From Candidatus Borkfalkia faecigallinarum (GTDB lineage Bacteria; Bacillota; Clostridia; Christensenellales; Borkfalkiaceae): a DNA stretch of 48,615 nucleotides. A model generated the notes under the pieces. It was not told the origin of the DNA. It ran no database searches and worked only from the letters and a program-made list of their open reading frames with translations. Below, piece by piece: positions 15,804 through 21,746 of this stretch; position 1 is the first letter of the stretch, and each line of letters starts with the position of its first letter. Both the position numbers and the translations under genes were made by a program. The DNA is taken from assembly GCA_019114625.1 (NCBI GenBank), contig DXFD01000060.1, forward strand, positions 1 through 48,615. Direction: 5' to 3'.

Positions 15804-15851
15804 CGCGGGCGGGCGCATACCCTTGTCATGCGCCCGCCCGCGTGCTATAAT
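15804..15851 (+). promoter_or_regulatory. Promoter TTGTCA-N17-TATAAT embedded in a 15-bp perfect inverted repeat
   Basis: CGCGGGCGGGCGCAT-ACCCTTGTC-ATGCGCCCGCCCGCG-tgc-TATAAT. Confidence 0.7.
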
Positions 15852-15885
15852 AAGCGCAAGAATGCCTCGGGGGGAGGGCTTTGCG

Positions 15886-17475
15886 TTGTTTCAGAAACTG
15901 ATTCTCGTTTGCATCCGGGAAGCGCTGATCGCGTTCCCGTGGCGGCTGACTGCCGCGCTGGCGGCGGGGCTCGGCGCGGCGGCGATCGCCGCGTATTTTC
16001 TCATCCGCGCCTGTTCGTTTCGGCTGATCCTGCATCTGGGCGACGGAACGACCGTCAGCGAGCGCCATCCGGGCGATTGTCGGCTGGATCTGTATCCGCT
16101 CCCGCCGCGGGAGGGGTACCGCTTCGTCGGCTGGTTTCGAGACGAAGCGTGTACGGAACCGGTCGCGGGCGTTTTGCGCGTTCCCCGTCGCGGGGCGGAG
16201 CTGTACGCGCGCTGGAAGGCGGAGCTGCCGCAGGGCTCGCCGTGCGCGGTTTCGCCGCTGCGGAAAGCGGAGGGCTCCGCCGCGGAATTGTCCGCGCCGT
16301 CCGTTCCCGCGTCGGCTTCGTCCGTGTCGTCAGCTCCCGCAGCGGCTCCGCTTGTGCCGTCCGTCCCCGAACGCGCGGGCGCGGCAAGCGGCTCCGACCT
16401 CGAACGCGCGGGCGCGGCAAGCGGCTCCGTCTCCGATCGCGCGGTCACGGCAAACGGCTCCGGTTCCGCGGCGAGATCGCCCGCGCCGTCCGGCCTTGTC
16501 GCCGATGTGTCCGCGCCGCCGAGTTCTTTATCCCGTTCGCGCTCCGTGCCGACGGAGGACGATTTCACCCGCGCGCTGCTCACGACCGCCGCGGGGGAGC
16601 TCATATTTCTATACCGCCGCCGCAGCTTTCTGGCGCGCCTCGCGCTCGCCGACGGCGCGGTGCAGGACTTTTTTCGGGAGGTGCGCGCCGCGCTCCTGTC
16701 CTTTGCGGGCGTGCGCGAGCGCATCGGCTGGGGCGGGGCGAGCTATGCCGCCGGGCGGACGACCCTCGCCCGCATCGCCGCAAACGCGAAGAGCCTCGTC
16801 GTCTGCCTCGCCCTCGACCCGCGCGGGGCGTATCTCGCGGGCGTGCATTTTGCCGATCTGTCCGCGCGCGGCCGCTACGCGTCCGTCCCCGTCCGCTGTA
16901 AGGTCACGGGGCGCCGCGGCCTGCACGCGGTGCTCGATCTCGTGCGCGAGCTGGCGCGGCTGCACGCGCTTGCGGGCTGCGCCCCGCCCGCCCCGCCCGA
17001 ACTTCCGCCGCCCGATCCGCGTTTGTTGGCGGAGCGCGGCCTGATCCGCGTCGTCGCCCGTCGGGAGAACGGCGACCCCGTCGCGGAGGAGGAGCTGCGC
17101 GCCCTCCTGGAGGCGGGCGCCACGCTGGAAAAATTCTCGTCCGCCTTTGCGCTTCGCCGTATGCGCGGCCGCGCCGTGCGCTTTTTGTTGGGGGAAGGCG
17201 CTTCGCCCCGCCCCGTGCCCGCCCGTTCGTCCGCCGCGCGCGCCCTCGTCAACCTGGATACGATCGCGGCCTGCTTTGCGGACGGGGCGCGGGTCGATCT
17301 GGAGACGCTGCGCGAGAAGGGGCTGATCGGCCGCCGCGCGACCGCCTGTAAAATTCTGGCGCGCGGCAGGCTGGACAAGGTGCTCACGGTGGAGGCGGAA
17401 GAATTTTCGCGTGCGGCGGAGCGCCTCATCGCGCAAAAGGGAGGCAAGGCCGTGCGCGTACACAAGGGGAAGTAG
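15886..17475 (+). CDS. Membrane-anchored InlB-repeat-like protein with conserved central domain and C-terminal ribosomal protein uL15-like domain
   Basis: TTG start after GGGGAGGG; TM LTAALAAGLGAAAIAAYFLI; InlB-like GYRFVGWFRDEACTEPV...LYARW; C-terminus VNLDTIAACFADGARVDLETLREKGLIGRRATACKILARGRLDKVLTVEAEEFSRAAERLIAQKGGKAVRV resembles uL15. Confidence 0.8.
   Translation: MFQKLILVCIREALIAFPWRLTAALAAGLGAAAIAAYFLIRACSFRLILHLGDGTTVSERHPGDCRLDLYPLPPREGYRFVGWFRDEACTEPVAGVLRVPRRGAELYARWKAELPQGSPCAVSPLRKAEGSAAELSAPSVPASASSVSSAPAAAPLVPSVPERAGAASGSDLERAGAASGSVSDRAVTANGSGSAARSPAPSGLVADVSAPPSSLSRSRSVPTEDDFTRALLTTAAGELIFLYRRRSFLARLALADGAVQDFFREVRAALLSFAGVRERIGWGGASYAAGRTTLARIAANAKSLVVCLALDPRGAYLAGVHFADLSARGRYASVPVRCKVTGRRGLHAVLDLVRELARLHALAGCAPPAPPELPPPDPRLLAERGLIRVVARRENGDPVAEEELRALLEAGATLEKFSSAFALRRMRGRAVRFLLGEGASPRPVPARSSAARALVNLDTIAACFADGARVDLETLREKGLIGRRATACKILARGRLDKVLTVEAEEFSRAAERLIAQKGGKAVRVHKGK
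16369..16467 (+). repeat. 33-bp (11-aa) coding tandem repeat, 3 copies, in linker of the uL15-like protein
   Basis: ERAGAASGSDL / ERAGAASGSVS / DRAVTANGSGS. Confidence 0.85.
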
Positions 17476-17499: not shown

Positions 17500-17905
17500 T
17501 TCCGGCGCGGCCGTTTGCCCGTGCGTTCGCCTTTGCGTTTCGTCTCCGCGCGCCTTGTGTTCGGCGCGCCGACATCATTTCCGCATTTCCGCTTATGCCC
17601 GCGCCCGCGGCTCTGTGTTTCGCCCGCGCCCGTTTCGCGTTCGGCGAGCCGATATCATTTTCGCCCATGCCCGCGCCCGTTTCGTGCGCGGCGCCCCGAC
17701 GACATTTCCGCTTTCCCATGCCCGCCCGCCTCGATATCCGCGCCCGTCTGTTTTCCCATGCCCGCCCGCCTCGATATCCGCGCCCGTCTGTCCCGCGAAG
17801 GATCGCCCGCGCGGCACCGCTTCTTCAAGAGAGCAAAACGATCCCGTCCCGCCGTTGGGGCGGATCTTTTTTATAAAAAGGGGCGGATCTTTTTTTATAA
17901 AATGC
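17500..17905. repeat. Noncoding degenerate repeat region incl. exact 40-bp tandem repeat (about 17713-17791) and duplicated GGGGCGGATCTTTTTT(T)ATAAAA block
   Basis: cccatgcccgcccgcctcgatatccgcgcccgtctgt twice at 40-bp spacing; gttcggcg(c/a)gccga(c/t)atcattt twice. Confidence 0.85.
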
Positions 17906-17915
17906 GGGCAAACGC

Positions 17916-17954
17916 TTGACAAATTGTGTATAGTGTATATAATGTATATATACA
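17916..17954 (+). promoter_or_regulatory. Promoter TTGACA-N16-TATAAT overlapping palindrome TGTATATATACA (probable GntR operator)
   Basis: Read directly. Confidence 0.75.
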
Positions 17955-20592: not shown

Positions 20593-21378
20593 ATGAACGA
20601 TCTCGAGCGCGCCGGCAAGGTCGGCGCGGTTCTGCCGGCGGTCGCGCCCGGCGCGCAAAGCGGCGATCCCGTCGACCGCGAAGAACTTCTGCGCGTCCTG
20701 GTCCGGGAGGGGGAGGACGGAGCGGAGGACGTCTACGGGCGGCTCAACTCTTTTGCGGAGCTTTTGATGCGCTACAGCGCGGCGATCCGCGAGGTGCGCA
20801 CCAAATTCGAAGTGCTCAACGAGGAGTTTTCCTTCCGCAACAGCCGCAACCCGATCGAGAGCATCTCCTCGCGCGTCAAGCGCCCGCTGAGCATCGTCGG
20901 CAAGCTGCGCCGCCGCGGCCTGCCGCTGACCGTCGAGGCGATCGAACAAAACCTGGACGACGTGGCGGGCGTGCGCGTCATCTGCTCGTTTATCGACGAC
21001 ATCTACGCGGTCGCCGAGATGTTCGCCCGCCAGGACGACGTCACCGTGCTTGAGGTCAAGGACTACATCCGCAAACCCAAGCAGAACGGCTACCGCAGCT
21101 ATCACATGATCGTGCAAATCCCCGTCTTTTTTTCGGACGGGAAGCGCCCCATGCGCGTCGAGATCCAGCTCCGCACGGTCGCCATGGATTTTTGGGCGAG
21201 CCTCGAGCATCAGATGAAATACAAAAAGGACAGCGCCGACCGCCCCGAGATCTCGGCGGAGCTGCGCAGCTGCGCCGAGACCATCGCCGCGACGGACGCG
21301 CGGATGCTGGGCATCCGCAAGCGCATCGAAAAGCTGGAGATGGAGCGCGAGGACGGCGGCGCGGGAGGACAGAGATAA
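20593..21378 (+). CDS. Small alarmone synthetase, RelA/SpoT-domain GTP pyrophosphokinase
   Basis: SRVKRPLSIVGKLRRRGLPLTVEAIEQNLDDVAGVRVICSFIDDIY, PKQNGYRSYHMIV, RVEIQLRTVAMDFWASLEH. Confidence 0.95.
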   Translation: MNDLERAGKVGAVLPAVAPGAQSGDPVDREELLRVLVREGEDGAEDVYGRLNSFAELLMRYSAAIREVRTKFEVLNEEFSFRNSRNPIESISSRVKRPLSIVGKLRRRGLPLTVEAIEQNLDDVAGVRVICSFIDDIYAVAEMFARQDDVTVLEVKDYIRKPKQNGYRSYHMIVQIPVFFSDGKRPMRVEIQLRTVAMDFWASLEHQMKYKKDSADRPEISAELRSCAETIAATDARMLGIRKRIEKLEMEREDGGAGGQR

Positions 21379-21746
21379 TGATAAAAGAAACAGCGCCTTC
21401 GCGCGCATTGCTGCAAAAATTACAGGGCCGCCTCGATGAACGCAAGTGGCTGGCGAGTGCCGCCGCCCGGCGCGATTTGTGCGGCGAAATGCCTTGGTGC
21501 GCGTTTTGCCGCAGAGAAGAGGAGTACCCCTGTGCCCGCGCCCGCATTCGCGAGCGCGCGGCCGTGGCGGCGGAAATGTCCGACGTGGAGGCGGAGATCG
21601 CGCAGGACGAGCGGGATGCCGCCCTCGCCGCGCGCTCCCTCGCCGCGGAAGGGGAGTCGGGCGCCGCGTCGACCGCCGAAGCCGTCCGCGAGGCAGTCCA
21701 AGAGGCGGTTTTGGAGCAAAAACTCGCGGTTAAAGACGAAGAATAG
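21378..21746 (+). CDS. Hypothetical small protein translationally coupled to alarmone synthetase
   Basis: TAATG overlap; 122 aa, helical, WCAFCRREEEYPC. Confidence 0.6.
   Translation: MIKETAPSRALLQKLQGRLDERKWLASAAARRDLCGEMPWCAFCRREEEYPCARARIRERAAVAAEMSDVEAEIAQDERDAALAARSLAAEGESGAASTAEAVREAVQEAVLEQKLAVKDEE

Follow-up and report, generated by a model that had tools for sequence, protein, structure and literature searches.

Ribosomal protein uL15 (rplO; PF00828, TIGR01071) is the described protein closest to the C-terminal end of a gene product encoded in the window, by which we mean the whole 48,615-nt stretch of DNA analysed here, from Candidatus Borkfalkia, a genus of the NCBI order Christensenellales. 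The likeness covers a C-terminal domain of about 70 aa with the same profile, the same fold and common core residues (VNLD..., K-I/V-L-x-x-G-x-L, GG). The window domain differs from uL15 in lacking the N-terminal rRNA-threading half (about 75 residues), in being membrane-anchored, fused to a YjbR-like domain and encoded outside a ribosomal operon, and in the conserved K to E/D changes and the hydrophobic helix of the fusion domains. A second likeness is to the giant InlB B-repeat (Flg_new) and MBG-domain proteins of Firmicutes, which in relatives carry or adjoin the same two-domain module, and of whose repeats one InlB-like segment is found in the window protein. To our knowledge, known giant InlB/MBG surface proteins have a sortase signal or just a few basic residues at their C terminus, whereas the module carriers end in a 260-aa, putatively cytosolic YjbR-uL15 tail. 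The YjbR/MmcQ, YdhG/DUF1801 and DUF5655 families (PF04237, PF08818, PF18899) give weak but consistent profile and structural matches to the first domain of the module, which differs from them in its tandem and membrane-tethered contexts and in its expansion in the order. YjbR homologues have a double-wing fold, and DNA binding has been proposed for them (PMC7641849). No description of a YjbR-uL15 family was found in the open literature.

Gene structure and domain composition

The stretch listed first in Table 1 is a real open reading frame. Its near-consensus promoter agrees at 11 of 12 positions, and two sites of such quality were found against 0.3 expected. The original prediction had given the gene its own promoter and placed it outside a ribosomal operon, and both points held: an amino-acid ABC transporter and an iron alcohol dehydrogenase lie upstream and a GntR/ABC transporter set lies downstream, the gene sitting between metabolic and ABC genes and not in the ribosomal operon before secY. 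The true rplO of the same genome was located at G000:C44:5572-6018 and is followed by a SecY-like gene. The GC-rich gap 3′ of the gene holds a perfect 40-bp tandem duplication at 17712-17791, surrounded by further degenerate repeats, and a perfect TTGACA-16-TATAAT promoter occurs at 17916-17943, ahead of a GntR-type regulator gene.

Table 1. Positions in the window of the gene, its expression signals and its predicted parts
Feature	Positions	Strand	Details or basis
Whole gene	15886..17475	+	529 aa, TTG start at 15886, stop at 17475
Gene layout	15886..17475		membrane helix - InlB-like repeat - linker - YjbR/DUF5655-like domain - linker domain - uL15-like domain
Sigma-70-like promoter TTGTCA-17-TATAAT	15823..15851	+	promoter search, sequence read directly
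Probable ribosome-binding stretch GGGGGAGGG	15870..15878	+	before TTG start; read from sequence
Predicted membrane helix (about aa 21-40)	15946..16005	+	hydrophobic; position conserved in family
InlB B-repeat / Flg_new-like segment (about aa 67-112)	16084..16221	+	sub-threshold match
Low-complexity linker	16222..16569	+	acidic in most homologues; contains 11-aa repeat
11-aa repeat	16360-16462		33 bp unit, 3.1 copies
YjbR/YdhG/DUF5655-like domain (about aa 239-359)	16600..16962	+	family Pfam matches, AlphaFold and Foldseek
Conserved linker domain between YjbR-like and uL15-like domains (aa 374-424)	17005..17157	+	alignment, model
uL15-like C-terminal domain (aa 455-523)	17248..17454	+	profile, PDB sequence and structure searches

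The open reading frame ends in a genuine uL15 C-terminal domain. PF00828 (Ribosomal_L27A, uL15/L18e family) matched it with 53.3 bits (E 3.9e-14; cut-off 21.5), and the match recurred in 27 of the 27 family members scanned, ending 0-10 residues short of the C terminus in the family homologues. The rplO equivalog TIGR01071 (NCBIfam) reached 40 bits against a cut-off of 77.95, with positions 73-143 of the 144 in the profile matched; the N-terminal half of uL15 gave no profile match, and the region before aa 452 is a linker. When the PDB was searched with the sequence of the window protein, Gram-positive uL15 chains came first. The AlphaFold model of aa 225-529 (mean pLDDT 88) matched ribosomal uL15 chains in Foldseek with E down to 6e-7, and its comparison with M. 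tuberculosis uL15 gave 2.5 Å over 80 columns. The claim that the tail corresponds to the end of bacterial L15 was thus borne out by the profile and structure searches that had been proposed as its check, both of which recovered uL15. Furthermore, this part of the protein is under purifying selection: it is 74-78% identical to three close relatives, and changes at third codon positions are about threefold more frequent than at first and second positions. That the resemblance is a chance match or a drifting, functionless remnant, as the short domain length might allow, has next to no probability given the profile E-value, the structural match, this third-position excess and the 88-98% tail identity within a genome of 13 copies described below.

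Because a PDB sequence search with the preceding domain found nothing useful, structure search was used for it. Pfam gave no match for this domain in the window member itself; among the 27 family members, DUF5655 was matched in four (best 3.2e-5) and YjbR in five (best 0.0041). In the AlphaFold model the domain has a mean pLDDT of 90, and Foldseek ranked E. coli YjbR (2fki; prob 0.97, TMt 0.50) first, with YdhG-type structures, including 9t2w and 2oc6, at ranks 3, 6 and 11; the E-values were marginal (best 0.046), and the matches agree with one another. From the model and the family Pfam matches, what had been noted merely as a conserved-looking domain is predicted to be a YjbR/YdhG/DUF5655-type (double-wing/CyaY-like) fold. 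The architecture is near certain.

The N-terminal half also agreed in outline with the first reading of the sequence, in which a transmembrane helix, an InlB/Flg_new-like repeat and low-complexity 11-aa repeats had been recognized. The hydrophobic helix and 3.1 copies of the 33-bp unit were confirmed, and the InlB-like repeat stands as a weak match, short of the curated cut-offs in both databases: at aa 67-94, Pfam gave 19.8 bits (E 8.7e-4; cut-off 27), and NCBIfam gave 20.3 bits against a cut-off of 20.95. The linker is 26-36% identical between the window protein and three close relatives.

Distribution and association with giant surface proteins

Scanning genomes yielded 184 encoded relatives; 80 were retained. 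These come from metagenome-assembled genomes (MAGs), many of which, judging by their titles, derive from gut samples. Their labels are Clostridia, Borkfalkia, Gallimonas, Coproplasma and others, and in a few cases Anaeroplasma/Mollicutes. Homologues with the same architecture, the search for which had also been proposed, were found: the order of helix, InlB-like segment, linker, YjbR-like domain, linker domain and uL15 domain is common to 21 aligned Borkfalkia proteins and recurs in most of the 80 loci from named genomes. Within the order the spread is patchy; judged by eye over 200 genomes, the whole module lies in one match in roughly 19 genomes at least; the YjbR-like domain by itself occurs more widely. 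Among the matches listed for 397 other genomes of the phylum, the whole module was not found, and the matches were to the uL15 part only, in open reading frames of rplO size (about 146-216 aa). A scan of viral contigs gave no relative of the module, and a phage origin was rejected on this ground. In the window's own genome, an assembly 88.6% complete, neither a second copy of the module nor a giant protein carrying it was seen.

No neighbour was shared by all loci across the order; the only recurring neighbours of interest were giant surface proteins and the gene engB, the latter in one lineage. This gene, engB/YsxC, encodes a 50S-assembly GTPase, and four related MAGs under the label Anaeroplasma/Mollicutes have it immediately 5′ of the YjbR-uL15 gene (L086, 217.9 bits for engB/YsxC; L097, L109 and L110).

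In relatives, giant InlB/MBG-type surface proteins either carry the module at their C terminus or are followed directly by a gene for it. A long open reading frame lies directly upstream on the same strand in 11 loci, mostly 0-13 bp from the module gene; most of these 11 end in a hydrophobic stretch followed by basic residues, and one upstream giant protein carries eight InlB repeats. In other relatives a single reading frame encodes both parts; these fusions range in length from 1,359 to over 5,000 aa and have the module as their last segment.

One 1.6-Mb genome (G177; loci L211-L217) contains 14 uL15 matches, of which one has the size and score of rplO and 13 are uL15-like copies, several of them on giant proteins with hardly alignable ectodomains. 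When four long copies were aligned, the ectodomain showed about 9-24% identity per 100-residue block, and the last 230 or so residues were 90-95% identical. Pairwise comparison of seven copies gave 88-98% identity for the YjbR-uL15 tail, with differences at 30-50% of third codon positions and at 1-7% of second positions. Since the tails are this similar despite such third-position divergence, the tail appears to be held constant by strong purifying selection and not by recent copying; an origin of this constancy in recent duplication or in gene conversion is disfavoured. The copies of this genome look like a variable surface-protein family.

A candidate docking tail and its alternatives

The explanation that we consider the most probable, and hold with reasonable though far from full confidence, is that an exapted uL15 domain forms part of a strongly constrained cytosolic tail that docks one shared cytosolic partner. 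The gene product would be a single-pass membrane protein with its C-terminal part in the cytosol, this part consisting of a YjbR-type (double-wing) domain and then the exapted uL15 C-terminal domain, and the two-domain module would serve as an intracellular docking tail. In the relatives, giant and variable surface proteins would end on the cytosolic side in this constant module, or else the gene directly after theirs would supply it on a membrane protein of its own; the window's gene would represent the stand-alone form. The remodelled, partly hydrophobic uL15 surface would bind one conserved cytosolic partner and in this way link the membrane or surface protein with the inside of the cell. 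Homology and fold, the distinction from rplO, the selection on the tail, and the linkage and fusion to surface proteins are computational results. We infer with moderate confidence that the tails share one partner, and the job of the tail inside the cell is probably not ribosomal. We put forward tentatively a wider version for a lineage of uncultured gut bacteria, in which giant diversifying ectodomains share a near-invariant YjbR-uL15 tail and are docked by it to dedicated machinery in the cytosol, perhaps to ribosomes or nucleic acid located at the membrane. We know of no described bacterial counterpart for such surface-to-cytosol coupling; if true, a variable surface-protein system would have recruited a ribosomal protein domain as its constant intracellular half, and the pattern of constant tail and variable ectodomain raises the testable question of what the tail binds.

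The uL15-like domains of the fusions are distinct from rplO, as seen when 107 of them were compared column by column with 50 rplO sequences from the class and order. The fusion domains keep the uL15 core (N8, K46, G52, K56, A69, I73 and GG77-78). Column 61, however, changes from 78% K/R in rplO to 77% D/E in the fusion domains (K61 to E), column 64 from 90% K/R to 91% D/E (K64 to D/E), and column 72 from K to M/L, being 100% hydrophobic in the fusion domains. In the helix at columns 67-76, charged residues number 1.5 in the fusion domains versus 3.9 in rplO, and hydrophobic residues 7.0 versus 4.3. Overall, the basic positions 57, 61, 64 and 72 that are conserved in rplO are reversed or lost, and K46, R51, K56, K71 and C-terminal K/R are basic positions kept or gained. 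A tree built on 78 columns only allows the fusion domains to form a single clade separate from rplO (p-AU 0.71), and the tree holding them together scores better by 14.8 log units. Because conserved basic positions are reversed or lost, a ribosome-like function of the window protein seems doubtful and plain rRNA mimicry is disfavoured; judged from residue conservation, rRNA contacts appear to have been lost from the fusion domains. These residue changes are best read as a uL15 domain repurposed and no longer a ribosomal part. If a core ribosomal domain serves as the tail of a membrane protein, this would be a clear case of exaptation in which the chemical remodelling can be traced, from lysines to acids and from a charged to a hydrophobic helix.

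The main rival, which we regard as unlikely but worth weighing, is a tether: by its uL15 and double-wing domains, the cytosolic module would attach to 23S rRNA, to an intermediate of 50S assembly or to DNA/RNA and so hold ribosomes or the nucleoid at the membrane, for example during the synthesis of giant secreted proteins. Both domains derive from nucleic-acid-binding folds (YjbR double-wing, PMC7641849; uL15), and the basic positions kept or gained, the very strong constraint on the tail and the engB/YsxC gene directly ahead in four related MAGs are consistent with such a tether. Against it stand the absent N-terminal half of uL15, the reversal or loss at positions 57, 61, 64 and 72 together with the hydrophobic C-terminal helix, and the confinement of the engB link to one lineage, other contexts being different.

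The docking explanation also depends on the side of the membrane on which the module lies. An excess of K/R after a helix is the signature of an N-out/C-in arrangement. In 66 homologues with a helix before the module, K/R were counted in the 15 residues before and after the helix and were commoner after it in 64 (mean 4.7 versus 0.8); because of this bias, the YjbR-uL15 module should be cytosolic, a conclusion that we hold strongly. Consistent with it, two fusions (L043 and L082) have a signal peptide, an ectodomain, a single later helix and then the module, and another module protein (L041) has neither helix nor signal peptide. The helix of the window protein itself has roughly even flanks, with 2 K/R on each side, and its orientation would follow from that of the relatives. 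A tail inside the cell requires an odd count of hydrophobic segments, the signal peptide aside; some giant forms have two or three, and a short hairpin segment is assumed for these.

InlB-type repeats are normally extracellular, and the InlB-like repeat follows the helix in both the window protein and L043. That the repeat would then lie on the inner side is the chief point against this placement and argues mildly for the outside. In an adhesin-like protein exposed at the surface, the helix would be an N-in signal anchor and the whole C terminus, uL15 domain included, would lie outside; the family's link to surface proteins and the even charges of the window protein would suit this arrangement. 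We nevertheless judge it improbable, more so than the nucleic-acid tether, since positive residues follow the helix in nearly all homologues, the type I fusions place the module inside, and stand-alone relatives with neither signal nor helix occur. Of the membrane or surface tethering raised in the original prediction, the membrane anchor stood and the surface location is disfavoured.

That the uL15 tail replaces uL15 in ribosomes or competes with it is very improbable. Clear as the homology is, the same genome has a normal rplO in its ribosomal operon, the tail lacks the rRNA-threading half and falls far below the rplO equivalog cut-off, and the domain forms a distinct clade with its own residue signature in a membrane-anchored protein. 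A role as uL15 replacement or ribosome component was rejected on the presence of the true rplO and the missing rRNA-binding half. Because the family proteins match the uL15 profile above its cut-off, pipelines that name proteins by domain or use marker genes could misname them as ribosomal.

The YjbR/DUF5655-like domain has also expanded in the order apart from the module, often in tandem and without a uL15 cap, as at L045:5078-7906 (-). At 21336-21746 (+), the window encodes a short protein in which a conserved Cys motif occurs (LDERKWLASAAARRDLCGEMPWCAFC...PCARAR). Along 47 aa, this protein is 57% identical to the N-terminal region of a companion protein with a YjbR domain (L034:16645-17517). 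Unlike this companion, the short protein has no YjbR-like domain; the companion is kept nearby in Borkfalkia relatives.
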